DNA of 42,943 nt from Prevotella sp. (GTDB lineage: Bacteria > Bacteroidota > Bacteroidia > Bacteroidales > Bacteroidaceae): contig JAFZAH010000005.1 of the NCBI GenBank assembly GCA_017548275.1, forward strand, positions 1 to 42,943, in the 5' to 3' direction. The notes below the pieces were generated by a model, which saw only the letters and a list, made by a program, of their open reading frames with translations, made no database searches and was not told the DNA's origin. The translations under genes were made by a program, and so were the position numbers. This document shows positions 16,581 through 38,123 of this stretch, in pieces; within the stretch, counting starts at the first letter, position 1; every line of letters starts with the position of its first letter.

Positions 16581-16610
16581 ACCCACCCTGGCCCTCCCTA
16601 GGGGAGGGAA
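16581..16610. repeat. GC-rich palindromic element, copy 3
   Basis: The arm ACCCACCCTG (16581-16590) is followed by the palindrome CCCTCCCTAGGGGAGGG (16592-16608). The arm starts 5 bp after the HTCS stop codon. It is nearly the same sequence as the inverted copy inside the argB reading frame. Confidence 0.75.
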
Positions 16611-16623
16611 AGGTTTACCCATA

Positions 16624-16648
16624 CCCCCTCCAAAAGAGGGGGCTTTTT
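16624..16648 (+). terminator. Terminator between convergent HTCS and CPBP genes
   Basis: CCCCCTC (16624-16630) and GAGGGGG (16636-16642) form a hairpin followed by CTTTTT. It serves the rightward HTCS gene and overlaps the stop codon region of the leftward CPBP gene. Confidence 0.7.
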
Positions 16649-17417
16649 ATCTCTTCATCCTTAAATTCAGTTGCAGCAACGCCGGGATGAGCAAACAGAA
16701 AGAGAATCCTATCGCCATGAGTATACGATGCTGGTCTTCCCCGAATAATTGGGTGAAGGTAAGGTCGTTCATACCTGGATAAATGTTGGAGAGGACGTAA
16801 GCCACCGTGTTGTTTACCCAGTGCAGTAGAATGCCGGGGATGATACTGCCCGTACGCCAATACATCCACCCTAGCAAGATGCCCATGAGTAAGGCATGTG
16901 GCATCTGTGCCAAGTTGAAATGGGCTGCGGCGAAGAACAGTGCGCTCACCACAATGGCTATCCAAGGACGGTAAGATTGCAAGAGTGCCCGGAGAATGGC
17001 TCCGCGAAACACCACTTCTTCGACCAACGGGGCAAAGATGCAGATGGACAGGTATCCCCATGGTGATGCCATAATGCCTTGAAACAGTTCCGCATTGCTG
17101 TCGGGCAAGTCCAATTGTCCTGCCAGCCATTCCGATGGAATAATAGTTCCCAAAGCCGCTATAACCACCCAGAAAAGCACCCCGTATGGGCGTGAACGGA
17201 GATAAGTGCGCTCGACGACACACCAGCGGCATGCCAGAAAAATGACCAGTAACACCAGACTATAAACCGCTGATGACACAATGACTACGGGTGCTTTTGT
17301 CATCAGGGTTTCGTCTAAACCTGTGCCTTCCGCCCATGACCAGATAATCATCACAGCAAACGTGCAGATAATTTGTACGGCGAGAAAAACAACTAAATAG
17401 AATAATGCTTTTTTCAT
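16647..17417 (-). CDS. CPBP family intramembrane metalloprotease
   Basis: A multi-pass membrane protein (256 aa) of the CAAX protease and bacteriocin-processing (Abi) family. All three signature motifs are present: E133-E134-x-x-x-R138, F162-x-x-x-H166 and H199-x-x-x-N203, which bind zinc and form the active site inside the membrane. About seven hydrophobic segments are visible. The substrate is unknown. No bacteriocin or prenylated-peptide gene is nearby. It is the last gene of a leftward group after ribF, separated by a repeat-filled gap of 107 bp, so it may be transcribed on its own. Domain assignment is firm, role open. Confidence 0.85.
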   Translation of the reverse strand: MKKALFYLVVFLAVQIICTFAVMIIWSWAEGTGLDETLMTKAPVVIVSSAVYSLVLLVIFLACRWCVVERTYLRSRPYGVLFWVVIAALGTIIPSEWLAGQLDLPDSNAELFQGIMASPWGYLSICIFAPLVEEVVFRGAILRALLQSYRPWIAIVVSALFFAAAHFNLAQMPHALLMGILLGWMYWRTGSIIPGILLHWVNNTVAYVLSNIYPGMNDLTFTQLFGEDQHRILMAIGFSFCLLIPALLQLNLRMKR

Positions 17418-17470
17418 TTCTTCTAGGTTTAGGGTATTTTTGAGGAAGTTAAAGAAGCGAGAGCCGTAAT

Positions 17471-17566
17471 TTAGGAGTGAAGGAGTGTAGGAGTTTAGAC
17501 ATTAGTGCTCTATCAGCGGGCTTTCTACTCCCCTCTCCCCTTGGAGAGGGGTTGGGGGTGAGGCTT
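17471..17566. repeat. Composite repeat: GGAGT-word repeat plus palindromic element
   Basis: GGAGT words lead to GGAGTTTAGACATTAGTGCTC, then AGCGGGCTTTCTACTC, then the palindrome CCCCTCTCC/GGAGAGGGG (17530-17538, 17543-17551) and the arm GGTGAGGC. The reverse complement of 36275-36376 matches this order over about 95 bp. The palindrome and arm encode the last residues and the stop codon of ribF. Confidence 0.8.
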
Positions 17567-18478
17567 CTTCAGGCATTTTATATCCTCTTTCAACTGTTCA
17601 GCCAACGCTTCGGGGGAATCGAATTGACGTTCTGGGCGTATATGGCGTCGGAAGGCGACGGTAAGGATCCTGCCGTACAAATCGCCATGGAAATGCAAGA
17701 TATGTGTCTCGAGCGTGACATGGTCGCCATGAAACGTGGGGCGCGTGCCGATATTCATCATGGCGGGCCGCCACTGCTCCTCGCCATCTATCCGCACATC
17801 TACGGCATACACGCCCGTGGCTGGTATCAAAAGGCACGGTTCCGACAATGACAGGTTGGCGGTGGGAAAACCCATGCGGCGCCCTTGTTGTTCGCCGCCG
17901 ATGACGGTACCCGTCAGCGTATAGGGATGCCCGAGGTAGTGGTTGGCTTTTTCCACTTCGCCCCGATGCAGACACGCACGGATGAGCGACGAACTGACAC
18001 ACTCACCGTCCATATCCACCTCCTCGGCACGCTCTACACGAATACCCAGTTCCTCGCCATAACGTACATAGTTATTAAAACCCTCGTTACAATCGTGGCC
18101 GAAACGATGGTCATAACCCACCACCAGATGGCGGACATTCATCTGCCGTGCCAACACCTGTTTCATGAAATCATATGCGCTCATGGAAGCCATTGCCGCG
18201 TCGAACGGTAGTATCATGCATTCATCCACGCCCGTGGCAGCCAGCAATGACAGTTTCTCTTCAAATGAGGCAAGCAATTCAGGACGGAATCCTTCCTGCA
18301 CCACCTGCCGCGGATGTACGGCGAAGGTGATGACCGTCGATACAAGTCCCTCGGCGGCAGCCATGTCGCACACGTGCCGAATCAGGAATTGATGCCCCAG
18401 ATGTACACCATCGAAGAAACCGATGGTGGCTGCGCAGGGCATCATGTCCGATAAGCCATCAGCACTTATCACTCTCAT
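17525..18478 (-). CDS. ribF: Bifunctional riboflavin kinase / FAD synthetase with repeat-encoded tail
   Basis: Makes FMN and FAD from riboflavin in the cytoplasm (317 aa). The N-terminal FAD synthetase half shows GFFDGVHLGH (20-29) and GYDHRFGHD (about 120-128). The C-terminal flavokinase half shows RRMGFPTANL and MNIGTRPTF. The start codon lies 11 bp downstream of the GH2 gene stop, so the two are probably co-transcribed. The last 12 residues, PHPQPLSKGRGE, and the TAG stop come from a GC-rich palindromic element and are not part of the ribF family. The enzyme proper ends near IKCLKK. The tail should be harmless to the fold because it follows the final helix. Confidence 0.92.
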   Translation of the reverse strand: MRVISADGLSDMMPCAATIGFFDGVHLGHQFLIRHVCDMAAAEGLVSTVITFAVHPRQVVQEGFRPELLASFEEKLSLLAATGVDECMILPFDAAMASMSAYDFMKQVLARQMNVRHLVVGYDHRFGHDCNEGFNNYVRYGEELGIRVERAEEVDMDGECVSSSLIRACLHRGEVEKANHYLGHPYTLTGTVIGGEQQGRRMGFPTANLSLSEPCLLIPATGVYAVDVRIDGEEQWRPAMMNIGTRPTFHGDHVTLETHILHFHGDLYGRILTVAFRRHIRPERQFDSPEALAEQLKEDIKCLKKPHPQPLSKGRGE

Positions 18479-18489
18479 GTCTATTGTTC

Positions 18490-21693
<3,204 letters not shown>

Positions 21694-21702
21694 TCAAATT
21701 GA

Positions 21703-22521
21703 TTAAAAACTCATGAGCCATGATTTCAACTCCGTCATCATCTCCAGATGGTATTTGAAACCGATGCGGCTTCCCCATCCGTGACCGCCGGTGGGATAGA
21801 CGTGGAGCGAGGAGGGTATGTGATGACTGTTGAGGGCATTGTAATAACTCACGCCGTTGACGGGCAGCACCGCGGTGTCGTCATCGCTCAGCGCAATCCA
21901 TGCGGGCGGAGTGTCTGCCGTCACCTGCAATTCGTTGCTGAACAGGCGCTCCATCTCTTTCTGAGGGTTCTTTCCGAGCAGGAAATCGTGCGACCCCTGA
22001 TGTGTGGTGGCGGGGTCCATTGTGATGACCGGATAGAACAATATCTGGAAATTCGGGCGCGCGTCGGTTGCCGCATGAGTCGCAACGGTAGAGGCGAGAT
22101 GGGCGCCAGCCGATGACCCCATGATGCCTACGTCGTTGGGGTTGATATGCCAGTCCGCCGCATGACGGCGCACCATGCGTATCGCCTCCTCGGCATCGCC
22201 GACAGGCACACGGTAATTGCCGTGAGGCATCCGGTATTTGAGGACCACCACAGCAATACCCATGTTATTAAAAAAACCAGCGAAATCCTTGCCCTCATGG
22301 TCTATCGCCAAATGGATATAACCGCCGCCGGGACAGATGACGATAGCCCGACCAGTGGCCTTGGCTGCATCGGGCAGGTAAATAAACACTTTCGCCGTGT
22401 CGGCAGGATTGCTGCTTACTACGGGTGCACCGTCAGGCCACAACAGGCTCTCGCTTTGAGTCTGTGCAGCGGCACTTATCGCCATGAGCGACAGGAGTGC
22501 GACAAATATTGATTTTCTCAT
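21703..22521 (-). CDS. Exported alpha/beta-hydrolase, acetyl xylan esterase-like
   Basis: A 272-aa esterase with a signal peptide (about 1-19, SAAA-Q). The fold is seen in the oxyanion-type ICPGGGY (62-68), nucleophile Ser137 in GSSAGAH, an acid among Asp213-215 (LSDDD), and His247 in GGHGWG. Such small exported hydrolases of the BD-FAE/lipase-like type deacetylate xylan or xylo-oligosaccharides in related loci. It is the first gene of a leftward group with GH2 and ribF and has its own -7 box upstream. Substrate is inferred from family and neighbours. Confidence 0.82.
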   Translation of the reverse strand: MRKSIFVALLSLMAISAAAQTQSESLLWPDGAPVVSSNPADTAKVFIYLPDAAKATGRAIVICPGGGYIHLAIDHEGKDFAGFFNNMGIAVVVLKYRMPHGNYRVPVGDAEEAIRMVRRHAADWHINPNDVGIMGSSAGAHLASTVATHAATDARPNFQILFYPVITMDPATTHQGSHDFLLGKNPQKEMERLFSNELQVTADTPPAWIALSDDDTAVLPVNGVSYYNALNSHHIPSSLHVYPTGGHGWGSRIGFKYHLEMMTELKSWLMSF

Positions 22522-22545
22522 GGGTTAGGTAGTTGAATGATTGTG

Positions 22546-22553
22546 CAAAGTTA
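22546..22553 (-). promoter_or_regulatory. -7 promoter box for the esterase-GH2-ribF group
   Basis: Minus-strand TAACTTTG fits TAnnTTTG and lies 24 bp upstream of the esterase start. No convincing -33 element was seen. Confidence 0.45.
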
Positions 22554-22626
22554 CATTTTTTGCACGAGAATGATGCGAAAACGATTAAAAAAGCGGAGAT
22601 GTGTCATAAAATTGGAGAAAAAAAAC

Positions 22627-22634
22627 TAATTTTG
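22627..22634 (+). promoter_or_regulatory. -7 promoter box for the SGNH esterase
   Basis: TAATTTTG fits the consensus and lies 43 bp upstream of the ATG at 22678. The -33 element is unclear. Confidence 0.45.
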
Positions 22635-22677
22635 CCTTCGGAAATTACACGTAAAACAAAAACGCTATCTTAAAAAC

Positions 22678-24108
22678 ATGAACAAACGATTATTGACCAT
22701 CTGCGCGCTTACCCTATTTGCTATAGGAACGCAGGCGAAAGTGAAGTTGCCGCATGTCATCGGCGACCACATGATATTGCAACAAAACACCGAGGCTCGT
22801 CTGTGGGGTTGGGATAAACCCGGAAAGAAAGTGAAAGTGTCACCCTCATGGGATAACGATACTTACACGGCAAAAACAGATGATGAAGGCCGGTGGCTCG
22901 TCAGCGTGAAGACGCCCGCAGCCAGTTTCACAGAATACAGCATTACTTTCGATGACGGCGACAAAACCACCATCAACGGGGTGATGACTGGTGAAGTGTG
23001 GGTTTGTGCCGGACAAAGCAACATGGAGATGCCTGTCAAGGGGTTCGGCAACTGTCCCGTTGAGGGGTATAACCTCGCTGTGACGGATGCGGTCAACTCC
23101 CGTGGCGTGCACTACGTCAAGATTCCCAGTGTGATGTCGATGACTCCGCTCGAGGATGCCGACTGCGAATGGAAGGTGTGTGACCCCAATACCGTTGGCG
23201 ACGCTTCTGCCACAGGTTATTTCTTCGCGCGGCTGGTCAGCCGCACGCTCAACATTCCTGTCGGACTGGTCATGGCGAACAAAGGAGGTACGCGCGTGGA
23301 GAGTTGGCTCACACGAGATAACCTGCAGCGCTATACACAGGAGACACTCGACTCGATGGAGATGGTGCGTCGCTTCCCGTGGGATTATCACCGTCCGCTG
23401 CTTTGGGGCAACGGCACCTTCAATCCCATTCTCAACTACACGGTGAAGGGCATCCTTTTCTATCAGGGCTGCTCCAATGTGGGCGATCCGGGTAACCAAT
23501 ACTCCGACCGTCTGGCACTTTTGGTCAAACAGTGGCGCGAGCAGTTCGGCTTGGGCAACATACCCTTTTATTTCGTGCAGATAGCCCCCTATTATTATGA
23601 TGACGACATCAATGGCCTCAGCGGCGCTTTGTTGAGAGAACAGCAGTTCCGCGCTGCGCAGATTATCCCCAACAGTGGTATCGTCTGCACCAACGATCTC
23701 GCCTATCCTTGGGAAACTCAGCAGATACACCCATGCCAGAAACAACCTGTAGGAGAACGTCTCGCATTCCTCGCGCTCAATAAGACATACGGCATGGCGA
23801 GCATCATGTGTGAAAGTCCGTCGTTCAAGGAGATGACCATCAAGGGCGATACCTGCTTCGTTAGGTTGCAAAATGATTATGACGGTATCAGCCGCTACGA
23901 AGACATCCAAGGGTTTGAGATGGCTGGCGCAGACCGTGTGTTCCACAAGGCCAATGCTTATTACTATTGGACCAAGGGCATCATCATCACTTGTCCCGAA
24001 GTGAAAGAACCAGTGGCAGTGCGCTACTGTTTCCGCAATTTCCAACTCGGAAACGTTGCCAACCAAGCCTTGTTGCCCCTCTTCCCCTTCAGAACGGATC
24101 AGTGGTAG
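22678..24108 (+). CDS. Sialate O-acetylesterase-type SGNH esterase
   Basis: An exported carbohydrate acetylesterase (476 aa), divergent from the esterase-GH2 group and probably deacetylating plant or host glycans. The signal peptide is about 1-20 (GTQA-K). Residues about 25-100 form a beta-sandwich with the HMILQQN motif. The SGNH domain has Ser114 in CAGQSNME and His351 in IHPCQKQPVGERLA. In the block that usually reads YQGES this protein has YQGCS, with Cys265 in place of Glu. The same Cys variant occurs in Bacteroidota relatives as far as I recall, so it probably does not mean loss of activity. Sialic acid itself need not be the substrate. Confidence 0.82.
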   Translation: MNKRLLTICALTLFAIGTQAKVKLPHVIGDHMILQQNTEARLWGWDKPGKKVKVSPSWDNDTYTAKTDDEGRWLVSVKTPAASFTEYSITFDDGDKTTINGVMTGEVWVCAGQSNMEMPVKGFGNCPVEGYNLAVTDAVNSRGVHYVKIPSVMSMTPLEDADCEWKVCDPNTVGDASATGYFFARLVSRTLNIPVGLVMANKGGTRVESWLTRDNLQRYTQETLDSMEMVRRFPWDYHRPLLWGNGTFNPILNYTVKGILFYQGCSNVGDPGNQYSDRLALLVKQWREQFGLGNIPFYFVQIAPYYYDDDINGLSGALLREQQFRAAQIIPNSGIVCTNDLAYPWETQQIHPCQKQPVGERLAFLALNKTYGMASIMCESPSFKEMTIKGDTCFVRLQNDYDGISRYEDIQGFEMAGADRVFHKANAYYYWTKGIIITCPEVKEPVAVRYCFRNFQLGNVANQALLPLFPFRTDQW

Positions 24109-24110
24109 TT

Positions 24111-24233
24111 TTAGGAGTGTAGGAGTTCAGGAGTGTAGGAGTTCAGACAATAGTACTCTTATTGGGAGTGTAGGAGTTCAGGAGTGTAGGAGTTCAGACA
24201 ATAGTACTCTAGTTGGGAATTCAGACAATAGCA
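24111..24233. repeat. Tandem GGAGT-word repeat, 51-bp period
   Basis: A unit with GGAGTGTAGGAGTTCAG, AGACAATAGTACTCT and ATTGGG or GTTGGG occurs twice, offset by 51 bp (GTTCAGACAA at 24141 and 24192), followed by a truncated third copy (TTCAGACAATAGCAC). It fills the gap between the esterase and the NUDIX gene. It is open in the frame of the NUDIX gene, so an upstream start would add a spurious repeated peptide. Confidence 0.8.
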
Positions 24234-24259
24234 CATTTTATAAACCTCAAACCGATTCC

Positions 24260-24784: not shown

Positions 24785-24854
24785 TTTATACCGACAAAGT
24801 CTTAAAAATCCTTAAATATCTGCCTATATAATAAGGTGGATAAAAACTTATGCT

Positions 24855-24862: not shown

Positions 24863-24891
24863 CGCCCCAAACATAGCGACTAACAAAAAGT

Positions 24892-27820: not shown

Positions 27821-29713
27821 ATGAAGAAGTGGACCATTGACGACGCGAGAGAACTCTACAACATCAACGGGTGGGGCACCTCCTATTTCGGCATCAACGA
27901 CGCGGGTGATGTCTATGTCACACCTTGTAAAGACCAGACGCAGATAGACCTGCGCGAAGTGATGGACGAACTGGCACTGCGCGATGTCACATCGCCCGTG
28001 CTCCTGCGTTTCCCTGATATCCTTGACAACCGTATCGAAAAGACGTGGAGTTGTTTCAAAAAGGCCGCCAAGGAATACGAGTACAAGGCGGAAAACTACG
28101 TCGTCTATCCCATCAAGGTCAACCAGATGCAGCCCGTGGTAGAGGAAATCATCAGCCATGGAAGAAAGTTCAACCTCGGACTGGAGGCGGGTTCGAAACC
28201 AGAACTCCACGCCGTCATCGCCATGCAATGCCAGAGCGACAGCATCATCATCTGCAACGGCTACAAAGACCAGAATTACATCGAATTGGCATTGCTTGCA
28301 CAGAAGATGGGCAAACGAATCTTCATCGTTGTGGAGAAACTCAACGAACTGGATATCATTGCCAAGATAGCCAAGAAACTCGATGTCAGGCCCAATATCG
28401 GCATACGCATTAAACTGGCATCCAGCGGCAGCGGAAAATGGGAGGAAAGCGGCGGCGACGCCTCAAAATTCGGACTTACAGCCAGTGAACTGCTTGACGC
28501 CCTCGAGACACTTGACAAAAAAGGTCTTCACGACTGTCTCAGACTCATCCACTTCCATATCGGTTCACAAATCACCAAGATACGTCGTATACAAGCCGCA
28601 TTGAGAGAGGCTTCACAGTTCTATATCCAACTCCACAAAATGGGCTACAACGTCGATTTCGTGGATTGCGGAGGCGGTTTAGGCGTGGACTATGACGGTA
28701 CGCGTTCGCCTAGCAGCGAGAGTTCGGTCAACTACTCCATTCAGGAGTATGTCAATGACTGTATCTATACCTTTGTGGAGGCATCCAACAAAAATGACCT
28801 CCCCCACCCTAACCTCATCACCGAGAGCGGACGCTCGTTGGCAGCGCACCACTCCGTGTTGGTCATCGACGTGCTTGAAACGGCTTCTCTGCCTGAGATG
28901 CCCGAGGAATTTGAACCCGATGAGACCTCACATCAGTTGGTGAAAGACCTCTACGACATTTGGGACAATCTCTCCGCACGCAATGTTTTGGAAGACTGGC
29001 ATGATGCCGAGCAGATACGTGAGGAAGTGCTCGACCTCTTTGCCCACGGCATCGTGGATTTGAAGACACGCGCAGAAATCGAGGCGATGTATTGGAGCGT
29101 ATGCCATGAAATCAATGCGCTGGCCAAGAACCTTAAACATATCCCTGAGGAACTGATGAATATTGATAAGTTGTTGGCTGACAAGTATTTCTGCAACTTC
29201 TCTTTGTTCCAAAGCCTCAGTGACTCCTGGGCCATCGACCAGTTGTTCCCCATTATGCCCATCCAGCGGCTCAACGAGCGTCCCACCCGTAACGCCACAT
29301 TGCAAGACATCACTTGCGACAGCGACGGAAAGGTGGCCAATTTCGTGACCAACCGCCACAATTCACACTCCCTGCCCGTGCATGCGCTTCGCAAAAACGA
29401 GAAATATTACCTTGGTGTATTCCTTGTAGGCGCCTATCAGGAGATTCTCGGCGATATGCACAATCTTTTCGGAGACACCAATGCCGTGCATATCTCCGTC
29501 AAAGACGGGCAATACCATATCGACCAGATTATCGACGGTGAGACGGTCGAGGAGGTGCTCGAATACGTGCAGTACAATCCCAGAAAACTCGTCCGCCAAC
29601 TCGAGATATGGGTAACCAAGAGTGTCAAACAAGGCAAGATTACCCTCGAAGAAGGCAAAGAATTTCTCTCAAATTATCGTTCAGGTTTATATGGATACAC
29701 CTATCTAGAGTGA
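27821..29713 (+). CDS. speA: Biosynthetic arginine decarboxylase
   Basis: A PLP enzyme (630 aa, full length) that converts arginine to agmatine for polyamine synthesis. The PLP lysine is Lys99 in YPIKVNQ. Other motifs are GLEAGSKPEL, HFHIGSQ, the phosphate-binding DCGGGLGVDYDG, and the C-terminal barrel. The stop codon TGA (29711-29713) directly touches a palindromic-element arm. It precedes argB, so arginine synthesis and arginine use are adjacent. Confidence 0.95.
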   Translation: MKKWTIDDARELYNINGWGTSYFGINDAGDVYVTPCKDQTQIDLREVMDELALRDVTSPVLLRFPDILDNRIEKTWSCFKKAAKEYEYKAENYVVYPIKVNQMQPVVEEIISHGRKFNLGLEAGSKPELHAVIAMQCQSDSIIICNGYKDQNYIELALLAQKMGKRIFIVVEKLNELDIIAKIAKKLDVRPNIGIRIKLASSGSGKWEESGGDASKFGLTASELLDALETLDKKGLHDCLRLIHFHIGSQITKIRRIQAALREASQFYIQLHKMGYNVDFVDCGGGLGVDYDGTRSPSSESSVNYSIQEYVNDCIYTFVEASNKNDLPHPNLITESGRSLAAHHSVLVIDVLETASLPEMPEEFEPDETSHQLVKDLYDIWDNLSARNVLEDWHDAEQIREEVLDLFAHGIVDLKTRAEIEAMYWSVCHEINALAKNLKHIPEELMNIDKLLADKYFCNFSLFQSLSDSWAIDQLFPIMPIQRLNERPTRNATLQDITCDSDGKVANFVTNRHNSHSLPVHALRKNEKYYLGVFLVGAYQEILGDMHNLFGDTNAVHISVKDGQYHIDQIIDGETVEEVLEYVQYNPRKLVRQLEIWVTKSVKQGKITLEEGKEFLSNYRSGLYGYTYLE

Positions 29714-29731
29714 CCCGCCCTGACCCTCGCC
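29713..29731. repeat. Palindromic-element arm, left boundary of the DUF559 remnant
   Basis: ACCCGCCCTGACCCTCGCC matches the arm and first palindrome half of the copy at 16581 (ACCCACCCTGGCCCTCCC); the second palindrome half is lost. It overlaps the last base of the speA stop. An inverted copy lies at 29937-29966. Confidence 0.65.
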
Positions 29732-29860
29732 AAGCGTACACAATGGTTGGAAGAAAATGGATATACTGTCCTTCGTTTTACAAACCAAGAGGTTCTTCAA
29801 TCCGTTGAAACAGTTTTACAAACCATAAAGGACACCATAGACAATATAGAATCAGGAAAG
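29714..29860 (+). pseudogene. Remnant of a DUF559 (Vsr-like) endonuclease gene
   Basis: The frame after the speA stop reads LAKRTQWLEENGYTVLRF, then TNQEVLQSVETVLQTIKD. This is the characteristic C-terminal part of DUF559 proteins (R-x-x-x-LE..GY.V.RF.N.EVL). The N-terminal part with the catalytic residues is missing, and there is no ATG before 29891. The fragment is bracketed by a direct palindromic-element arm on the left and an inverted full copy on the right. It runs in the same frame into argB. It is a decayed gene, not a functional one. Identification rests on remembered family motifs. Confidence 0.6.
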
Positions 29861-29890
29861 AACTGGTTATCATCATCAGAGAATACAGAA

Positions 29891-30727
29891 ATGGAAATCA
29901 ATCAATCTCTCTCTCAGGAGGTTCTAAGTGACTCGGTTCCCTCCCTTAAGGAGGGACAGGGTGGGTCTCTTACCATCGTCAAGGTCGGCGGGGCGATTGT
30001 CGAAGATAAAGAGCAATTGGAACGCCTGCTCGACAATTTTTGTGGCATTTCAGGCAAGAAAATACTCGTGCATGGCGGCGGACGCAGAGCCACACAAGTG
30101 GCGTCGCGGCTTGGCATTGAGAGTAAGATGGTCAACGGGCGCCGCATCACCGACAGCGACATGCTCGAAGTGGTGACGATGGTCTATGGCGGACTAGTCA
30201 ACAAGAATATTGTTGCACGTTTGCAAGCGCGTGGCGTGAATGCTATCGGATTGACTGGCGCCGATATGGATGTGATACGCTCACACCGCAGACCCGTGAA
30301 AGACGTGGATTACGGTTTTGTGGGTGATGTGGACCGTGTGGATGCCGACCAACTTGAAATGCTGCTTGAAAAGGGCATTACCCCCGTTTTGGCACCGCTC
30401 ACCCACGACGGCGCGGGTACGATGCTCAACACCAATGCCGATACTATCGCTTCGGTGGCAGCGCAGGCACTTGCAGACCACTATGAGGTGACGCTCATCT
30501 ATTGTTTTGAGAAGCCAGGTGTGTTGAGTGACCCTGACGATGATAACTCGCTCATTCCCCACATTACACGCGAGGATTTCACACGGCTTACCGCCGACGG
30601 TACCATCTCAGGGGGCATGATACCTAAGATAGAAAACGCGCTGCAAGCCGTAGAGGCTGGTGTGCGCCGCGTCATCATCACCCTCGCCACTGCCATTGAT
30701 GGCCAGCACGGCACCATCATAGAATAG
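29891..30727 (+). CDS. argB: Acetylglutamate kinase with repeat-encoded N-terminal extension
   Basis: Phosphorylates N-acetylglutamate in arginine synthesis (278 aa from this start; family members are about 255-260). The kinase proper begins at LTIVKVGGA, with VHGGGRRAT, TGADMD, NINADT-like NTNADTIAS and GGMIPKI motifs. Upstream of it the frame runs through an inverted palindromic element encoding SVPSLKEGQGGS and, before that, a DUF559 remnant. The ATG at 29891 is the only ordinary start near the kinase; a TTG at 29747 would add 48 more residues of the remnant. So either start gives an N-terminal extension. The catalytic core is intact. A terminator follows. Confidence 0.9.
   Translation: MEINQSLSQEVLSDSVPSLKEGQGGSLTIVKVGGAIVEDKEQLERLLDNFCGISGKKILVHGGGRRATQVASRLGIESKMVNGRRITDSDMLEVVTMVYGGLVNKNIVARLQARGVNAIGLTGADMDVIRSHRRPVKDVDYGFVGDVDRVDADQLEMLLEKGITPVLAPLTHDGAGTMLNTNADTIASVAAQALADHYEVTLIYCFEKPGVLSDPDDDNSLIPHITREDFTRLTADGTISGGMIPKIENALQAVEAGVRRVIITLATAIDGQHGTIIE
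29937..29966. repeat. Palindromic element, inverted copy inside the argB frame
   Basis: CCCTCCcttaaGGAGGG followed by the arm ACAGGGTGGGT is the reverse complement of the 16581 type. It is translated as PSLKEGQGGS at the start of ArgB. The arm faces the argB body. Confidence 0.75.
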
Positions 30728-30731
30728 ATAT

Positions 30732-30782
30732 TATTCGCCTATTGGGGCTCATTAGGCTCATAAAGCGAATTAGCCCAATACC
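30732..30782. repeat. GCCCAATA word repeat with hairpin
   Basis: CGCCTATTGGGGCTCATTAG, GCTCATAAAGCGAATTAGCC and CAATA are iterated words; TATTGGG and CCCAATA can pair. It lies between argB and its terminator. Related words occur at 39432-39476 and 5646-5690. Confidence 0.45.
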
Positions 30783-30789
30783 CCCAAAG

Positions 30790-30828
30790 AAAAATCCGGG
30801 TCCTTTCTCAGGGCTCGGATTTTCTTTC
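30790..30828 (+). terminator. Terminator after argB
   Basis: AAAATCCGGGTCC and GGGCTCGGATTTT form a hairpin with a seven-base loop, followed by CTTTC. It closes the rightward topA-aroK-speA-argB region. Confidence 0.75.
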
Positions 30829-30926
30829 GTTAGTATGTTATGAAAAATTTGAGAGAAATTGAAACTTCACAGTTTCAGAATTGTTTTACTAAACATGATT
30901 TTATAGAGAAAGCATAGAAAAATGTC

Positions 30927-31391: not shown

Positions 31392-31395
31392 CTTG

Positions 31396-31905: not shown

Positions 31906-31938
31906 CTTCTCTCTTTGTGTTGACGATTATACGGGACG

Positions 31939-31970
31939 GAAAGTTACAAGAATTAACAACTTTTAACCAA
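31939..31970 (-). promoter_or_regulatory. Possible promoter of the sigma factor operon
   Basis: Minus-strand TAACTTTC (31939-31946) is one base off TAnnTTTG, with TTGG (31967-31970) about 21 bp upstream. The gene starts at 31905. Confidence 0.35.
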
Positions 31971-32032
31971 TTGGTTGTTTAGGAGACTTGTTGTTTGGTC
32001 GTTTAGGGGTAGAGAGGTTGATTCATTATGTA

Positions 32033-32053
32033 TGTCATCGTGCCACGATGACA
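32033..32053. promoter_or_regulatory. Perfect 21-bp palindrome upstream of the sigma operon
   Basis: TGTCATCGTG and CACGATGACA are perfect 10-bp arms around a single central C. It lies about 130 bp upstream of the sigma gene and just before a GGAGT-word repeat. A dyad with a one-base centre cannot form a good RNA hairpin over its full length, so a protein-binding operator or a mobile-repeat end are both possible. Confidence 0.4.
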
Positions 32054-32070
32054 CATTCTACGGACATTAG

Positions 32071-32137
32071 TCCTCCAATTACGTACTATTGTCTAAACTC
32101 CTAAACTTCTACACTCCTACACTCCTACACTCCTAAT
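32071..32137. repeat. GGAGT-word repeat, reverse orientation
   Basis: On the minus strand 'ggagtgta' words iterate and lead into TTTAGACAATAGTACGTAAT, matching the 24111-24233 and 17471 copies. It ends 9 bp before the stop of the 157-aa unknown protein. Confidence 0.75.
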
Positions 32138-32146
32138 TCTCCTTCC

Positions 32147-32620
32147 TTATTTCTTAAACATGTTCCTAATCCAGCGGATGTTGTCTAACCATTGGATGAT
32201 GGGGCCGATGACGGGCAGCGCGCGTGCTCCAGCCCAGCGCAGACGGTTCACTTCGTCGGGCAGGGCGTGTGAGATGGCTGCTTTCATTTCTATTTCTGCC
32301 ATTGATTTGGCATGTTCCTGTGCAGAGATGCGTCTGTTCTCGGCCTTCATTTCTGCCACCTGTTCGTCAATAGACTGCCCTTGGGCATTGACCACGCAGT
32401 TAGCGTATTTCCCTAACAGCGCATTGTATTCTTGGAAGAGAGGTCCCTGCATCAACTGGTTGTTGAAGGCTGCCTGGTCAGGACTGCTGTATGCCAATTG
32501 GTCGAGTTTCGCAAAAAAAGCGTCAAACTCCTGTTGTCCGGCAGCATCCAGACGGTATTGCTGCTCGACGACATCATGATAGGGTTTTGTCCAAAGATGA
32601 TGTGTTGCCATAATGCTCAA
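32147..32620 (-). CDS. Unknown 157-aa protein
   Basis: Not recognised. The protein is mostly helical and polar with many Ala, Gln and Glu (for example DEQVAEMKAENRRISAQEHA), ending in a hydrophobic, Trp/Arg-rich segment (ALPVIGPIIQWLDNIRWIRN) that could contact a membrane. There is no signal peptide, so it is probably cytoplasmic. It has a good promoter of its own (32662-32693) that lies back to back with that of the FabK-like gene. Met4 (32611) is an alternative start. Codon use looks like that of its neighbours, so the gene is probably real. Confidence 0.7.
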   Translation of the reverse strand: MSIMATHHLWTKPYHDVVEQQYRLDAAGQQEFDAFFAKLDQLAYSSPDQAAFNNQLMQGPLFQEYNALLGKYANCVVNAQGQSIDEQVAEMKAENRRISAQEHAKSMAEIEMKAAISHALPDEVNRLRWAGARALPVIGPIIQWLDNIRWIRNMFKK

Positions 32621-32661
32621 TGATAAAAATGGTTGATGATAAAACGATATGAATCTTTTTG

Positions 32662-32693
32662 CAAAAATAGCATTTTTCGCCTAATTCGCCAAA
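32662..32693 (-). promoter_or_regulatory. Promoter of the unknown 157-aa protein
   Basis: Minus-strand TTTG (32690-32693), 20-bp spacer, TATTTTTG (32662-32669): a full match to the Bacteroidota consensus. Confidence 0.65.
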
Positions 32694-32698
32694 AATTC

Positions 32699-32729
32699 TT
32701 GTCCATATTCACAAAAAGCACTATTTTTG
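32699..32729 (+). promoter_or_regulatory. Promoter of the FabK-like gene
   Basis: TTG (32699-32701), 20-bp spacer, TATTTTTG (32722-32729). It is divergent from the promoter at 32662-32693, the two -33 elements being only a few bases apart. Confidence 0.65.
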
Positions 32730-32758
32730 CATCATCTTATTCGGAAGTAAATAAATAG

Positions 32759-33703
32759 ATGAAACAGAACAGAATCACAACATTATTCGGGATAGAGAAA
32801 CCCGTCATTCAGGGCGGAATGGTTTGGATTAGCGGATGGCGTTTGGCGGCAGCCGTGAGCAATGCCGGCGGACTGGGTCTGTTGGGCGCGGGGTCGATGC
32901 ATCCCGAGACGCTCATCGAGCATATCCATAAGATGAAAGAGGCGACCGACAAGCCTTGGGGCATCAATGTGCCGCTGATGTATCCCGAGATTGACCGTCT
33001 TATTCAGATAATCATCGATGAGGGCGTGAAAATCGTCTTCACCTCGGCGGGTAGTCCGAAAAAATATACCGCGCGACTCCATGAGGCGGGCATTAAGGTG
33101 GCCCATGTGGTGTCCAGTTCGAAATTCGCCCGCAAATGTGAAGAGGCAGGCGTGGATGCCGTGGTGGCTGAGGGTTTTGAGGCAGGCGGACACAATGGTC
33201 GCGAGGAAACCACCACCATGGCACTCATCCCCCAAGTGAGAAAGGCCACATCGCTCCCGTTGATAGCCGCCGGTGGTATCGGCAGCGGCGAGGCCATCCT
33301 CGCTGCCATGGCCCTAGGTGCTGAGGGTGTGCAGATAGGCACATTGTTCGCACTGACCGAGGAGAGTAGCGCATCCGAGGCGTTCAAAGAACGTTGCACA
33401 CAACTTGAGGAAGGTGACACCATGTTGACATTGAAACTTATTTCGCCCACACGCATGGTGAAGAACGATCTCTACTGCCGTATCATGCAGGCTGAGAGCG
33501 AAGGTGCCGCTGTAGAGGATCTGCGCCGTATTTTAGGGCAGGCGGCATCGAAACGCGGCATCTTCGAAGGTGACATCGACAATGGCGAATTGGAAATCGG
33601 TCAGATAGCCTCTGCTGTCAAACAAATCCGCCCCGTCAGCGAGGTGATGCGCCAACTCACAGAAGAGTTCGAAGAAGCCAAAAAGCGCATCGAAGACTTA
33701 TAG
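32759..33703 (+). CDS. FabK-like enoyl-ACP reductase II / nitronate monooxygenase family
   Basis: An FMN-binding TIM-barrel protein (314 aa). It opens with KPVIQGGMVWISGWRLAAA, has the family His in EGFEAGGHNGRE, and FMN-phosphate motifs in AAGGIGSGEAI and GVQIGT. Overall spacing resembles FabK (the flavin enoyl-ACP reductase) more than classical nitronate monooxygenases, but the two groups share these motifs and cannot be separated by eye. It could be the fatty-acid enoyl reductase of this organism. It is a single gene with its own promoter and terminator. Confidence 0.8.
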   Translation: MKQNRITTLFGIEKPVIQGGMVWISGWRLAAAVSNAGGLGLLGAGSMHPETLIEHIHKMKEATDKPWGINVPLMYPEIDRLIQIIIDEGVKIVFTSAGSPKKYTARLHEAGIKVAHVVSSSKFARKCEEAGVDAVVAEGFEAGGHNGREETTTMALIPQVRKATSLPLIAAGGIGSGEAILAAMALGAEGVQIGTLFALTEESSASEAFKERCTQLEEGDTMLTLKLISPTRMVKNDLYCRIMQAESEGAAVEDLRRILGQAASKRGIFEGDIDNGELEIGQIASAVKQIRPVSEVMRQLTEEFEEAKKRIEDL

Positions 33704-33722
33704 ATTTGAAGTTAATGATATG

Positions 33723-33768
33723 AATCGGAGTAATCAGCAAAGCACGATTACTCCGATTTCTTTTTTTA
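33723..33768 (+). terminator. Terminator after the FabK-like gene
   Basis: Perfect 13-bp arms AATCGGAGTAATC and GATTACTCCGATT with a 10-base loop, followed by TCTTTTTTT. Confidence 0.9.
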
Positions 33769-33829
33769 TACGTTCAGATGGATTTGACATTTGTTCGCTT
33801 TCAATAAGTGAACAATAGTTCCCAGTCCT

Positions 33830-35260
33830 TCACTTCTTCACTTCTTTGGAAGGATTAGCCGATATTTTGTACAATCTGATAAGGAATAGCAGTCCGCGGA
33901 TGGTCAGTTCTATCGCCATGGCAACCCATACGCCAACCAAACCGTAACGGGTGGCAAGCAAGGCGGCGAGTGTCAGGCGGATGAGCCACATGCTCCCCAG
34001 ATTGATGGCTGCGGGCCGCAGGGTGTCGCCAATGCCCACACACACGCTATAAGTGACTATAGATGCGGCAAACATCGGTTCGGCGAATGCCTCGATACGC
34101 AAGCATTGTGCGCCTAAGTCGCGTATCTCCGCCACAGGGGTCATCAGACCCATCATCTCGGGTGCGAACACATACATCACCACCCCCATCACCGCCATGA
34201 CAATCATGCCCGTGAACACCGTCATACGGGCGAAACTGCTTATCAGGTCTGGCCGTCCTGCACCTTTGCTTTGCCCGACCAAGGTGGTAGCGGCGTCGCC
34301 GATACCAAAGCCCGGCATATAACACAGGCTTTCGGCGGTGATGGCAAATGTGTTGGCGGCGATGGCAATGTTGCCCAAAGGTGCGACAATCATCGTGCTG
34401 ACAATTTGAGCCGAACCCATCAGAAATGACTGCAATGCCATGGGAGCGCCTATCTTGAAGGCATTGACCAGATACGAAGTCACAAAACGGAAGGGTTCGT
34501 GAGGTAAGCGCAACGACAGCATCTTTGACCGGAAAAAAGCGAACCATCCCTGCCACAGCGACACCACGACAAAGGAAAGTCCTGAGCCTAAAGCCGCTCC
34601 CGTCACGCCCCATCCGGCACCGGGTATCCATACGTTCATGCCCAACAACTGAACGTGTCGGCTGGGGAAAATCAGGAGGAAATTGAACAACACATCCAGC
34701 ACGCACAAAAGAACGCTCATCACACTAGCCACACGCATATTTCCTTCGCACTTGAGCATCGACGATGCCAGCACATTCATCTGGAAGAAAGGACCAGAGA
34801 GGGAGAAAAACAGGAAATAGCGCGAAGAATCGGGCGCGATATCGGCACCGCCTCCTAACCAGAAAGGCAATGGCGAGGCAATGGCCACAGCCAGCAACAT
34901 GATTAACACGCTCAACGAGAAGGTGACGATGAGTGCATGACGGAGCACGTCGCGGGCCCGTACAAAATCGTTGGCACCGATGAAATGTGCCACCTGTACC
35001 GAGAAACCCATCGCCGCCGCAGAGAAAAGACTGCCAAACAACCATGTGGAAGACTCTACCAGACCGATGGCCGCGGAAGCCTCAGCGCCGAGACTGCCCA
35101 CCATGGCCTGGTCGATGAAAAACATCATCACCATGGTGACTTGCGCCAATATGGCGGGCACACTCAACTGGAAAATCAAGTTGAGTTTGTTATATCCCGT
35201 CATCGGTTTGCCCTCACGGATGAGAGCCAGCAATAACTCACTCTTCCGCTGTTTTTCCAT
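33830..35260 (-). CDS. MATE family efflux transporter
   Basis: A 12-helix inner-membrane antiporter (476 aa) that exports drugs or metabolites using a sodium or proton gradient. Motifs such as LSVPAILAQVTMVMMFFIDQAMVG are split here as LSVPAILAQ, FIDQAMVGSLG and MPGFGIGDAATTLVGQSKGAG, all typical of MATE proteins. Its start overlaps the end of dusB by 23 bp, so translation is probably coupled. It is the last gene of the leftward group. The substrate cannot be predicted. Confidence 0.92.
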   Translation of the reverse strand: MEKQRKSELLLALIREGKPMTGYNKLNLIFQLSVPAILAQVTMVMMFFIDQAMVGSLGAEASAAIGLVESSTWLFGSLFSAAAMGFSVQVAHFIGANDFVRARDVLRHALIVTFSLSVLIMLLAVAIASPLPFWLGGGADIAPDSSRYFLFFSLSGPFFQMNVLASSMLKCEGNMRVASVMSVLLCVLDVLFNFLLIFPSRHVQLLGMNVWIPGAGWGVTGAALGSGLSFVVVSLWQGWFAFFRSKMLSLRLPHEPFRFVTSYLVNAFKIGAPMALQSFLMGSAQIVSTMIVAPLGNIAIAANTFAITAESLCYMPGFGIGDAATTLVGQSKGAGRPDLISSFARMTVFTGMIVMAVMGVVMYVFAPEMMGLMTPVAEIRDLGAQCLRIEAFAEPMFAASIVTYSVCVGIGDTLRPAAINLGSMWLIRLTLAALLATRYGLVGVWVAMAIELTIRGLLFLIRLYKISANPSKEVKK

Positions 35261-36242
35261 CTCCTAATGTGCTCTCTATCTCGTCTAAAATATGGGTAAG
35301 TTCGTCCATCGTCGTGGCGCGCAGCATAGCGATACGTGTCTGTCGGAAATTAGGAATACCCTTGAAGATAGGCGACGCAGCCAAGTGGCGGCGCGTATGC
35401 AGGATACCGCGGTATTCGTCGATGCGCTCCACATTGATGCGCAACTGTTCGCGCAGCACATCCAGTTTCCATTTGAAATCCATCGTCGGGTCAGGTTCGC
35501 GCCCGTCCAAATAATTGCGCATCTCCTTGAAAATCCAAGGACGGCCGAAGGTGGCGCGTCCCACCATCACCGCGTCCACACCATAGCGGTCGAATGCCTG
35601 TTTGGCCTCCTCAGGCGAGGTGATGTCGCCATTGCCGATAATAGGGATGTGGATACGCGGATTGCGTTTCACCTCACCAATGAGCGTCCAGTCGGCCTGA
35701 CCCGTGTACATCTGCGAACGTGTGCGTCCGTGGATGGTCAGCGCCTGAATGCCACAATCTTGCAACTGTTCTGCCAAATCGGTGATAATCAGGTTGTTCA
35801 TGTCCCAACCCAGACGGGTCTTCACCGTCACAGGGGTATTTACCGCCTTGACCACCTCACGTGTGATATCGAGCAACAGGGGAATATTGCGCAACATTCC
35901 CGCTCCGGCGCCTTTGCCCGCCACTTTCTTCACCGGACAGCCGAAATTGAGGTCTATCACGTCAGGGTGAGCCTCTTCCACAATCTTGGCCGCCTCGACC
36001 ATCGCCTCCACATCACGACCGTAAATCTGAATACCCACGGGTCGCTCCTCGTCGCTGATGGTCAGTTTGTTGACCGTGCTCTTAATAGACCGCACCAGTG
36101 CTTCGGCACTCACAAACTCGGTGTAAACCATCGATGCGCCGAAACGCTTGCACAGCATCCTGAATCCGATGTCGGTCACATCCTCCATCGGAGCCAGGAA
36201 AAGTGGATAATTCCCAAAGATGCGTTGTATATCTTGATTCAT
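35238..36242 (-). CDS. dusB: tRNA-dihydrouridine synthase
   Basis: A flavin enzyme (334 aa) that reduces uridines in the tRNA D-loop. The start LAPMEDVTD, the catalytic Cys102 in NFGCPVKKVAGKGAGAG, TVKTRLGWD, TIHGRTRSQMYTG and IGNGDI motifs define the Dus family; DusB is the common bacterial type. It overlaps the MATE gene by 23 bp and is separated from dprA by 143 bp of composite repeat (36275-36376). Confidence 0.92.
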   Translation of the reverse strand: MNQDIQRIFGNYPLFLAPMEDVTDIGFRMLCKRFGASMVYTEFVSAEALVRSIKSTVNKLTISDEERPVGIQIYGRDVEAMVEAAKIVEEAHPDVIDLNFGCPVKKVAGKGAGAGMLRNIPLLLDITREVVKAVNTPVTVKTRLGWDMNNLIITDLAEQLQDCGIQALTIHGRTRSQMYTGQADWTLIGEVKRNPRIHIPIIGNGDITSPEEAKQAFDRYGVDAVMVGRATFGRPWIFKEMRNYLDGREPDPTMDFKWKLDVLREQLRINVERIDEYRGILHTRRHLAASPIFKGIPNFRQTRIAMLRATTMDELTHILDEIESTLGDGKTAEE

Positions 36243-36274
36243 ATTATAGAGACACTTCTAAAAACCCACCTAAA

Positions 36275-36376
36275 GCCTCACCCCAGACCCCTCTCCAAAG
36301 GGCGAGGGGAGTAGATAGCCCGCTAATAGAGTGGTATTGTCTGAACTCCTAAACTCCTGAACTCCCGAACTCCTAA
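36275..36376. repeat. Composite repeat, inverted relative to 17471-17566
   Basis: The arm GCCTCACCCC, the palindrome CCCCTCTCC/GGGCGAGGGG and then, in reverse, AGTAGATAGCCCGCT and GTCTGAACTCC words. Its reverse complement matches 17471-17566 in order and spacing, with scattered substitutions and no large gap. It fills the dprA-dusB gap; the arm points to the dusB start. Confidence 0.8.
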
Positions 36377-36385
36377 TTAATGTCT

Positions 36386-37525
36386 TTAACTTCCTAAAAA
36401 CAAATGATACATCCCGCCAGCGAGAGTGCGCACCACGCCTTTCATCTCCAGTTCAAAGAGTAAGGCGGTAAGCCGGTTGACGGGGATATTGGTTTGTGTC
36501 GCCAGCATATTTATCTGCAAGTCGTTGTGACGTTGCAGCACCTCCACGATGGTCTGCTCCTCAGGTGACAGGTCAGGAAAGAGATTGCGCTGGATGCCCT
36601 CGTTCTGGGCCTTTACCATGAGCGCATCGCTCTCCCACCCCATCGCACGGACGAAATCGTCAGCACTGCTGATGAGTGCCGCCCCATTGTCACGGATGAG
36701 GTTGTTGCACCCCTCGGAATATTCATCGCCGACACGCCCCGGGAAAGCGAACACGTCGCGCCCGTAACCGCGTGAGATACTGGCAGTGATGAGTCCGCCG
36801 CCCTTTGCCGCAGACTCCACGAGGATGCAGGCGTCGCTCATACCCGCCACGATGCGGTTGCGCCTGACGAAATTGATTTTGTCGGCATTGGTGCCCGTCA
36901 TGAACTCCGTGAGCAGTCCGCCCTGCCCCACCATACGGTTGGCGGTGTCCTTATGGCGAGACGGGTAGAGATCGTCGAGCCCGTGTGCCAGTACACCCAC
37001 TGTTTCGAAGCCATGTTCCAGCGCATTGCGGTGAGCGCAGATGTCCACCCCATAGGCCAATCCGCTTACAATCAGCACCTCAGGGCAAACCATCCGCAGG
37101 TCGCCGATGAATCGTCGGATAAGGTCCTGACCGTATGGCGTACATTTGCGGGTACCCACGATGTTGATGACACGTCGCTGGTTGAGGTTGGCGTTGCCTA
37201 TGTAATAAAGCACCACTGGCGCGTCGTCGCATTGCTTCAGACGTTCAGGGTAAGCCTCGTCTGTCATGGAGAGAGGTTGTATGCCTTTCGTCTCACAAAA
37301 ATGCAACTCCTCTTCGGCCCTTCGCATCAGCGGAGCAATATCTGCCTGCAAACCCTCTACGAGTCTTGGTCCCGCGTCGGGTATCACTGCGCGGATATCG
37401 TTACGATGCTCCATCACAGCCGTAGCGCTGCCAAGTGTGCGGTAGAGTTCCAAGATGCCAGCCAGATGAAACTGATTCATCCGTGCCAGAACCATCGCAT
37501 TGAGTATTTCTATTTCCAGTGACAT
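36386..37525 (-). CDS. dprA: DNA processing protein DprA
   Basis: Binds incoming single-stranded DNA and loads RecA during natural transformation (379 aa). The Rossmann-like core shows NIVGTRKCTPYG, VSGLAYGVDICAHRNALE, GVLAHGLDDLYPSRH, FVRRNRIVAGMSD and GGGLITA. A C-terminal winged helix (about 315-379, SPEEQTIVEVLQ onward) completes the family layout. Its start lies 2 bp after the thioesterase stop. Presence suggests the organism can process transformed DNA but does not prove competence. Confidence 0.94.
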   Translation of the reverse strand: MSLEIEILNAMVLARMNQFHLAGILELYRTLGSATAVMEHRNDIRAVIPDAGPRLVEGLQADIAPLMRRAEEELHFCETKGIQPLSMTDEAYPERLKQCDDAPVVLYYIGNANLNQRRVINIVGTRKCTPYGQDLIRRFIGDLRMVCPEVLIVSGLAYGVDICAHRNALEHGFETVGVLAHGLDDLYPSRHKDTANRMVGQGGLLTEFMTGTNADKINFVRRNRIVAGMSDACILVESAAKGGGLITASISRGYGRDVFAFPGRVGDEYSEGCNNLIRDNGAALISSADDFVRAMGWESDALMVKAQNEGIQRNLFPDLSPEEQTIVEVLQRHNDLQINMLATQTNIPVNRLTALLFELEMKGVVRTLAGGMYHLFLGS

Positions 37526-37527
37526 CG

Positions 37528-37986
37528 TTAATGGCAGGTATTTAATATCTCATCATACGGACTGTTGACAGCCAACCGCCCGTTGACCATGACCACAAGT
37601 TCCACCTTGGCGCGGAAGCACAGTTGTTCATCGGCTGCGCGATAGATATCTTGGTCGAAGATGAACCGCACACCCTCTTTATGGACGTTCAACCGCGAGA
37701 AAAACTCATCGTCGCACCTGAGAGGTGTCTTATATTGCATGTTTATTCTCGCCACCACCGCATCGATGCCTTGTTTGTGCAAGTCAGCAAACGACGCTCC
37801 CAGACTGCGCAGAAAGAGGTGACGTGTGTGCTCAATATAATGCAGGTAATTGGCATTATTGACGATGCCCTCGATATCGCACTCATAGTCGCGCACTTCC
37901 ATACGGGTCTCAAAGATATAGGGAGCCTCCCCTGTACCCCCTCCCAAGGAGGGGGACTCAAATTGAGACGATTGACGAATACTCAT
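37528..37986 (-). CDS. Acyl-CoA thioesterase (4HBT) with repeat-encoded N terminus
   Basis: A hot-dog-fold thioesterase (152 aa; family about 130-135) that hydrolyses acyl-CoA or acyl-ACP esters. The family region starts at YIFETRMEVRDYECD, with the catalytic-type DIEGIVNNANYLHYIEHTRH. Before it, residues 9-21 (FESPSLGGGTGEA) come from a palindromic element at 37924-37960, so the native start has been replaced. Met29 (37902) is an alternative start but would cut into the conserved first strand. It is followed 2 bp later by dprA and preceded by the DUF2851 gene. Confidence 0.85.
   Translation of the reverse strand: MSIRQSSQFESPSLGGGTGEAPYIFETRMEVRDYECDIEGIVNNANYLHYIEHTRHLFLRSLGASFADLHKQGIDAVVARINMQYKTPLRCDDEFFSRLNVHKEGVRFIFDQDIYRAADEQLCFRAKVELVVMVNGRLAVNSPYDEILNTCH
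37924..37960. repeat. Palindromic element inside the thioesterase start
   Basis: Arm AGCCTCCCCTGTA then palindrome CCCCCTCC-caa-GGAGGGGG (37937-37955), perfect 8-bp arms. On the minus strand it is translated ESPSLGGGTGEA, in the same relation to the hairpin as PSLKEGQGGS in ArgB. The arm faces the gene body. Confidence 0.8.
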
Positions 37987-38051
37987 ATTGGTTTTGTATA
38001 TTGAAAATTGAAACAGATTTTTCCAAGAGGTTTACAATCCTCCTTGTTTGG

Positions 38052-38123
38052 TGTCCCCTTCCAGAGAGGGGAGATGGGGGAGGCTATTTTTTCCCTTCTA
38101 AGGAAGGTGGTAGGGGGAGGCCC
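38052..38123. repeat. Two adjacent palindromic elements at the DUF2851 gene end
   Basis: The first (38052-38085) has CCCCTTCC/AGAGGGGA arms followed by TGGGGGAGGCT. The second (38091-38123) has CCCTTCT/AAGGAAGG followed by TAGGGGGAGGCCC. The second is translated on the minus strand as GLPLPPSLEGKK, and the TAG stop (38084-38086) lies where the two copies meet. Both arms point to the gene. Confidence 0.75.

Follow-up and report, generated by a model that had tools for sequence, protein, structure and literature searches.

Palindromic repeats of a Prevotella genome as probable inverted ends of small mobile elements that carry a DUF559 gene

We analysed a stretch of 42,943 nucleotides (nt) of contig JAFZAH010000005.1 from Prevotella sp. 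(genome 3.22 Mb), hereafter the window, in which short GC-rich palindromes recur between genes and, in four genes (ribF, argB, a DUF2851 gene and a thioesterase gene), encode the beginning or the end of the protein. The most convincing reading is that these palindromes are the ends of a mobile unit, or derivatives that have kept nothing but the ends; in its complete form this unit has a DUF559 gene between two inverted palindromes. Such units are probably small elements of a homing type which are translated and not spliced. The features of the window are as follows.

190..220, minus strand: palindrome, a divergent copy read by eye, outside both genome patterns given below
16577..16610, plus strand: palindrome of the ACCCACCC family, intergenic, 88% complementary to 29937-29970
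17525..17566, minus strand: palindrome of the GCCTCACCCC family, encoding the RibF tail PHPQPLSKGRGE
17525..18478, minus strand: ribF (FAD synthetase / riboflavin kinase; Pfam FAD_syn, Flavokinase), with palindromic tail
29713..29728, plus strand: left-end remnant (ACCCGCCCTGACCCTC), abutting the stop codon of the arginine decarboxylase gene, read from sequence
29729..29839, plus strand: DUF559 gene fragment, profile positions 72-108 of 109 (E 2.0e-8)
29937..29970, minus strand: right-end palindrome of the ACCCACCC type, in frame at the ArgB start (SVPSLKEGQGGS)
29747..30727, plus strand: open reading frame of argB, start provisional, which continues without a frame change from the DUF559 fragment and the palindrome (Pfam AA_kinase, DUF559, the DUF559 match in front being weak)
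36275..36313, plus strand: palindrome of the GCCTCACCCC family, intergenic between dus and dprA
37925..37960, plus strand: right-end palindrome of the GCCTCCCC family, encoding ESPSLGGGTGEA in the thioesterase head
37528..37986, minus strand: thioesterase gene with palindromic head (Pfam 4HBT families)
38051..38087, minus strand: left-end palindrome of the GCCTCCCC type, second of a tandem pair, with an inverted partner at 124 nt
38091..38121, minus strand: left-end palindrome of the GCCTCCCC type, first of the tandem pair, encoding the DUF2851 tail GLPLPPSLEGKK
38084..39409, minus strand: DUF2851 gene (Pfam DUF2851) with palindromic tail

Seven of the ten sites listed in the original prediction are clear copies with a C-rich arm and a GC-rich hairpin, and by eye they fall into three sequence families: the GCCTCACCCC type (17525, 36275), the GCCTCCCC type (37925, 38051, 38091) and the ACCCACCC type (16577, 29937). 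The copy at 190 is divergent, the arm stands alone at 29713, and at position 7405 neither arm nor hairpin was seen in the sequence. The peptides reported for RibF, DUF2851, the thioesterase and ArgB were confirmed by a sequence check, all four being encoded as had been written. The arm at 29713 and the palindrome at 29937-29970 are the left and right ends of one unit, and the DUF559 fragment lies between them, in front of argB; the DUF2851/thioesterase locus has left ends and one right end and is without a DUF559 gene.

Complete forms of the unit were found elsewhere in the same genome, where DUF559 occurs at three places: two complete genes, and the fragment before argB. Both complete genes are flanked by inverted palindromes of the window's kinds, arms outward, and in both cases the right palindrome opens the next protein, read from its sequence as EtfA (STPLSPRRGAGGEA/VFVYCEIEG) and RNase H (ECVSASLGGEA/WRTSAWAVDAA). 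In a set of 60 genomes of the genus, DUF559 is present in 37, at 81 places, of which 62 were read (the rest being four near-full-length genes and 15 fragments, the window's own included). As judged against 1240 dinucleotide shuffles, the inverted flanks scored above the 99th percentile in 51 of these 62 loci and above the maximum in 49. A tree of the DUF559 domains splits the loci into 51 of type A and 11 of type B. Of the type-A elements with inverted ends, 42 were compared; the closest match of the left end is the right end of its own element in 31 of them, and that right end is among the top three in 41. Type-A genes are fused over at least 80 residues to the frame behind in 24 of 51 cases, and on both sides in seven. 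The exit from the element takes one of two forms: either the nuclease frame runs on into the host, or it stops and a new ATG follows (L002, L034, L035, L037).

Type B (L036, L039, L042, L052, L054, L055, L067, L073, L088, L089, L091) often has the hairpin outermost, and one of its 11 members is fused. This single case, L091 (G058:C6), continues in frame through palindromic peptides into a protein that is DprA-like by sequence; the window's dprA likewise adjoins a palindrome, at 36275.

Across the genome, the pattern GCCTCMCCCN{2,7}CCCYTC gave 83 matches vs 9 for its reversed control, and ACCCACCCN{2,6}CCCTCC gave 55 vs 0; these reversed-pattern controls, together with the flank shuffles, rule out a chance origin of the copies. 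The total is at least 138 distinct copies, of which 110 lie outside called genes, 14 at C-terminal ends, four at N-terminal ends and 10 internally and in frame, genes having been called with a simple codon-usage caller and copies in broken genes being counted as outside. With a coding fraction of 0.81 in the loci scanned, this placement means that the copies avoid genes, which would be expected if genes lose most of the insertions they receive. Outside genes, the copies keep close to 3' ends (median distance 36 nt, with 69 of 111 no more than 60 nt away), and few of them (6 of 104) lie between divergent genes. The single shared reading frame of the original prediction was not upheld: of the first pattern's forward copies that lie within called genes, 3, 9 and 3 are in codon phases 0, 1 and 2, and the peptides of the DUF559 loci show the ends of related elements to be read in at least two frames. 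As to whether copies fall at random with respect to frame and gene ends, placement is non-random with respect to genes, whereas most copies are intergenic and the frame is not unique. In the GCCTCACCCC end, inspected by eye, the hairpin can be read through in all three forward frames, and a TGA interrupts one of the reverse frames.

The comparison of orthologues proposed with the original prediction was carried out on the 60 genomes of the genus, in which RibF was matched in 51, DUF2851 in 53 and ArgB in 45, with 30 loci read for each. The tails and heads proved to be additions that are absent from most of the orthologues read, which rules out their being native sequence. The palindromic tail of RibF was found in its own locus only (1 of 30), and replaces a native tail, mostly of 5-15 residues, of the 29 others. 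The DUF2851 tail is likewise confined to its own locus (1 of 30), and one other orthologue (L295) ends in a different palindromic peptide, PTLNPSPREEL. The thioesterase gene adjoins DUF2851 in 26 of the 30 loci, and its palindromic head is present in two of these 26 (its own and L296); the other thioesterases mostly start M-x-YIFET or similar (MK/YIFET in relatives). Palindromic heads of ArgB were seen in three of 30 loci (its own, G019 and G028), most others starting MKEKLT or similar, and in the window's genome and in G019 the native MKEK start is missing. The ends multiply in tandem, as observed at the ArgB/DUF559 locus of G019 (L049 / L095), where the ArgB head carries three successive right-end palindromes and a pair of left ends precedes the DUF559 gene. 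Two further argB orthologues, L108 and L113, lack an ATG around the position where the gene should begin, and in L108 the letters there resemble GGCCCCCC; these starts are possibly scars of lost elements.

By sequence and by predicted fold, the DUF559 protein resembles Vsr-like nucleases, its domain being close to that of I-Bth0305I, a homing endonuclease. A profile of 37 domains matched 3hrl (E 1.6e-29), I-Bth0305I (3r3p, E 1.1e-7) and then, weakly, PvuRts1I. The fold, predicted with a mean pLDDT (predicted local distance difference test) of 86.6, was matched by Foldseek to 3hrl and I-Bth0305I at E <0.001 (6.2e-5) and to E. coli Vsr at 0.02-0.03. The 37 domains share 17 invariant columns, including D52, E63, D65 and H69; nuclease activity of these proteins is a prediction. 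A DUF559 protein of Caulobacter is described as Vsr-like in the portion of PMC12907096 available. The gene is under purifying selection: the non-synonymous proportion of differences (pN) was below the synonymous one (pS) in every one of the 56 pairs with a protein identity of 62% or more, pS being mostly saturated, and the pair L069/L080 gave dN 0.06 and dS 0.44. For 36 loci at 12 recurrent sites, the labels of insertion site need 13 changes on the DUF559 tree (floor 11; 23-29 in 300 shuffles) and those of genome 36 (31-39 in shuffles). Because site labels cluster and genome labels do not, DUF559 lineages follow the insertion site and not the genome. Such clustering would fit homing endonucleases, and would fit descent at a site with losses as well.

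Elements also stand in frame in the middle of other genes. Within the genus the hosts (named from their sequence, apart from L093, by a match to an aminotransferase model, and L063, by alignment to leucyl-tRNA synthetase) are an ABC-F-like ATPase (L041), a helicase (L045, L084), a sugar epimerase (L058), leucyl-tRNA synthetase (LeuRS; L063), a GAF-type protein (L083) and a DegT-type aminotransferase (L093). The helicase insert lies between GPPGTGKT and LLSYTN; the helicase was matched in 51 of the 60 genomes, and the element is present in two of the 30 loci read (the unread loci include frames of >1300 residues), in a loop of variable length elsewhere. A wider scan of contigs covered the best 80 of 575 relatives (590 matches), which with five duplicates set aside gave 75 loci; all of these best 80 are Bacteroidota by title, the query being Bacteroidota too. 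Inverted flanks scored >30 in 56 of the 75 loci, and the DUF559 gene is fused behind in 45, in front in 31 and on both sides in 28. Among the 16 non-LeuRS frames of these 28, Pfam places DUF559 inside RecG (3), MetH (3), class I tRNA synthetases (4) and DegT (2), and also in UvrA, an Lhr-type helicase, a protein with a poly(A)-polymerase head, and Ham1. By our reading of their sequences, the four synthetases would be the valyl (L179, L222) and isoleucyl (L207, L223) enzymes. L195 is a single 1005-residue open frame made up of Ham1, DUF559 and a PorZ-like protein, and looks like a fusion of two neighbouring genes by the element.

LeuRS served as a test case. In all 12 genomes tested that have DUF559 in LeuRS, the interrupted frame is the sole one over the LeuRS cut-off, genome completeness not being given and the first part of the gene lying in another frame in G066. 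In 118 genomes of the phylum, no LeuRS frame exceeded 988 residues in the 89 outside Bacteroidia, and seven exceeded 1050 in the 29 within, all 29 of which were read, with phmmer used to compare their sites. Site 1, immediately before the TTRPDT motif, holds a DUF559 element in three of the 29 (176-189 residues between fixed points) and is in an ends-only state in one (L273, SPRPSPKEREAVKVLSFGEDLGEA). In 23 others it measures 27-32 residues, one of these (L268) having DUF559 at another site, and in two it measures 34 and 45 residues, with no recognised palindromic peptide. At site 1 of L063 the insert has ends only, and 152 of 159 nt are identical between it and the left-hand portion of the DUF559 element that occupies site 2 of this LeuRS gene. 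On the host LeuRS tree, occupancy of site 1 needs eight changes, the rows having been partly chosen by the scan. An AlphaFold model of whole LeuRS with its insert was unusable, with a predicted template-modelling score (pTM) of 0.34.

These observations suggest the following mechanism. The complete element consists of a left palindrome (arm outward), the DUF559 gene, a short linker and a right palindrome (arm outward). The nuclease would cut an empty site inside a gene or at its start, and repair from an occupied copy would import the element; cut-and-repair homing is the simplest account of the recurrence at the same sites. A short host stretch would thereby be replaced, about four codons including the start codon in argB and, by eye, roughly 8-10 loop codons in LeuRS, and since host sequence seems replaced, the borders are unlike those of plain insertion with duplication. 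Nothing would be spliced out of the host product, and the host protein would presumably work with the insert in place. The ends are runs of C and G with few stop codons, which gives each copy a reasonable chance of keeping its host frame open; survival in genes would depend on stop-poor GC-rich ends together with a nuclease frame that passes into the host frame, or on the supply of a new start codon. Copies without a nuclease gene may be moved in trans, with the hairpins possibly having a role of their own. Selection would retain the tolerated insertions, with no choice of frame by insertion being claimed.

Ordinary repetitive extragenic palindromic (REP) sequences, moved by a tyrosine (Y1) transposase of the REP-associated tyrosine transposase (RAYT) kind, would account for an arm and hairpin of this type in many, mostly intergenic copies, and the genome does hold one Y1 transposase gene. 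This gene (L001, G000:C36:119113-119451) is flanked by a different palindrome pair (GCCCTTTCAGGGCG, CCCAGGGCGTTGCCCTGGG), on which ground the REP origin was rejected, and a search of the window for GTAG-tagged hairpins gave none; we hold such an origin to be highly improbable. The Y1 gene and its own palindromes are perhaps a separate REP system. The position of inserts beside conserved motifs of essential genes recalls inteins and introns, which would be removed from the protein or the RNA. No intein family was found at Pfam E 1e-5 in the 16 frames, no Rfam family, introns included, matched at the gathering threshold in 11 sources, and the frames are open throughout the inserts, which an intron would not need; both the intein and the group I/II intron were rejected on these searches, and removal of the insert is extremely unlikely.

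A nuclease domain recruited by hosts for its usefulness, with the palindromes incidental, would agree with the purifying selection on DUF559 and with the fact that several hosts act on DNA (RecG, UvrA, the Lhr-type helicase). Yet tRNA synthetases, MetH and aminotransferases are hosts as well, occupancy is patchy (3/30 argB heads, 2/30 helicases, 3/29 at LeuRS site 1) and the palindromic ends are matched in pairs, so that we regard recruitment as very unlikely. The intergenic copies could, whatever their origin, be terminators or mRNA-stabilising hairpins useful to the host, in line with their position near 3' ends and their scarcity between divergent genes; selection against copies near promoters would yield the same placement, and the DUF559 gene between the ends and the in-frame copies are left unexplained. 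As an explanation this is unlikely, and a terminating or stabilising role can be a side effect of the same elements.

Several results weigh against our reading of the palindromes as ends of mobile DUF559 elements. Of the 62 loci, 11 failed the inverted-flank test; L041, L058 and L093, three of the seven elements in mid-gene position within the genus, are among them. Most copies in the genome are single, an arms-outward partner within 700 nt being found for only seven of 138, a count that is low because the relaxed partner finder misses 61 of the 138 copies themselves. With pairs from the same site or genome excluded, palindrome similarity hardly followed DUF559 relationship (rho 0.084; 33 of 300 permutations as high), and co-evolution of the two beyond site and genome, being weak, is not claimed. 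The DUF559 tree is built on few columns of a short domain, with 20 of 58 inner branches unresolved and site labels assigned by eye, and the pairs for the pN and pS comparison were chosen for protein identity, which favours low pN. No pair of LeuRS inserts is more alike than the pair of host genes that carries it, which leaves transfer between lineages unproved and makes an old insertion with losses possible. Cutting and movement by these elements are predictions from sequence.

The palindromes had originally been likened to the Rickettsia palindromic elements, which, according to the available parts of PMC10969869 and PMC3733652, are often in frame in unrelated protein genes; palindromes of the REP type in open reading frames (ORFs) are known there from other phyla also. 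The likeness, drawn from descriptions and not from Rickettsia sequences, holds in so far as the present copies are dispersed, foreign and able to lie in frame (28 of 138 overlap called genes, and four genes of the window contain them). It does not extend to a family defined by insertion in frame: 110 of 138 copies lie outside genes, no single frame is conserved, and the palindromes, of about 36 nt, appear to be the ends of a larger unit whose complete copies carry a nuclease gene, in another phylum. A parallel in architecture is the REPIN/RAYT system, in which an enzyme gene is flanked by its own palindromes and enzyme-free copies lie elsewhere (PMC6006769, in the part available); here the enzyme is a Vsr-like nuclease and not a tyrosine transposase. 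Miniature inverted-repeat transposable elements are also enzyme-free copies with inverted ends, but the comparisons of empty and occupied loci, which are not base-exact between strains, suggest that host sequence is replaced and did not establish a target duplication. For homing nucleases in coding DNA, the accessible portion of PMC3943268 describes an association with self-splicing introns or inteins, which spare the product, or a free-standing state. The EDxHD homing endonucleases, with I-Bth0305I, are the nearest solved relatives by sequence and fold, and as with them the same sites are recurrently occupied and empty alleles exist; unlike theirs, the insert is translated along with its host, and the searches revealed no splicing element.

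Outside Bacteroidota, 10 of 39 DUF559 records from a plasmid collection were read, their flanks being scored against 100 single-base shuffles. Inverted flanks exceeded the shuffle maximum in five (Pseudanabaena, Deinococcus, Sphingomonas, S. meliloti and Picosynechococcus), and the other five were below it, Synechocystis with ends of the same type under the mark and E. coli KE47 with such hairpins on one side. CGTC repeats are GC-rich palindromes, some of them in ORFs, which the available text of PMC3733652 reports as 'not associated to transposase genes'. A CGTC-tagged hairpin stands on each side of the S. meliloti DUF559 gene, a lead from one locus; none was found in the window. Among the papers listed from the open-access literature, judged mainly by title, we found no report linking DUF559 to palindromes, most subscription papers being outside that scope, and no enzyme for in-frame palindromic elements is named in the literature found, as far as the available parts of its texts go.

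Two other repeats of the window may be recorded here. Runs of AACTCCT(A/G)AACTCCT adjoining GTATTGTCT or its complement form a second repeat family at 17463-17513, 24111-24212, 32068-32135 and 36316-36375, and similar runs also adjoin the DUF559 element of another species (L039). Directly after the copy at 16577, a further hairpin (ACCCATACCCCCTCCAAAAGAGGGGGC, then a T-run) occupies 16603-16637, and is either a diverged copy or a terminator.

We consider the chances to be even that these elements form a previously undescribed class of selfish DNA, translated and unspliced, in which a gene for a Vsr/EDxHD-like nuclease with stop-poor palindromic ends would invade conserved sites of essential genes and live there as an extra domain of the host proteins, with the ends also spreading alone as in-frame palindromes. 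For annotation, the finding accounts for peptides, SLTPDPSPKGEG and PHPQPLSKGRGE among them, that recur at the ends of proteins encoded by this genome. As LeuRS is found empty, with ends only and with the whole element, insertion, its cost and mobility are directly testable. The elements suggest how a homing-type nuclease may persist inside an essential gene with no need of splicing, and how proteins may acquire tails, heads, loops and whole domains. If this is true, and holds outside Bacteroidota as well, DUF559 would supply the enzyme so far lacking for a large class of palindromes that extends across phyla.

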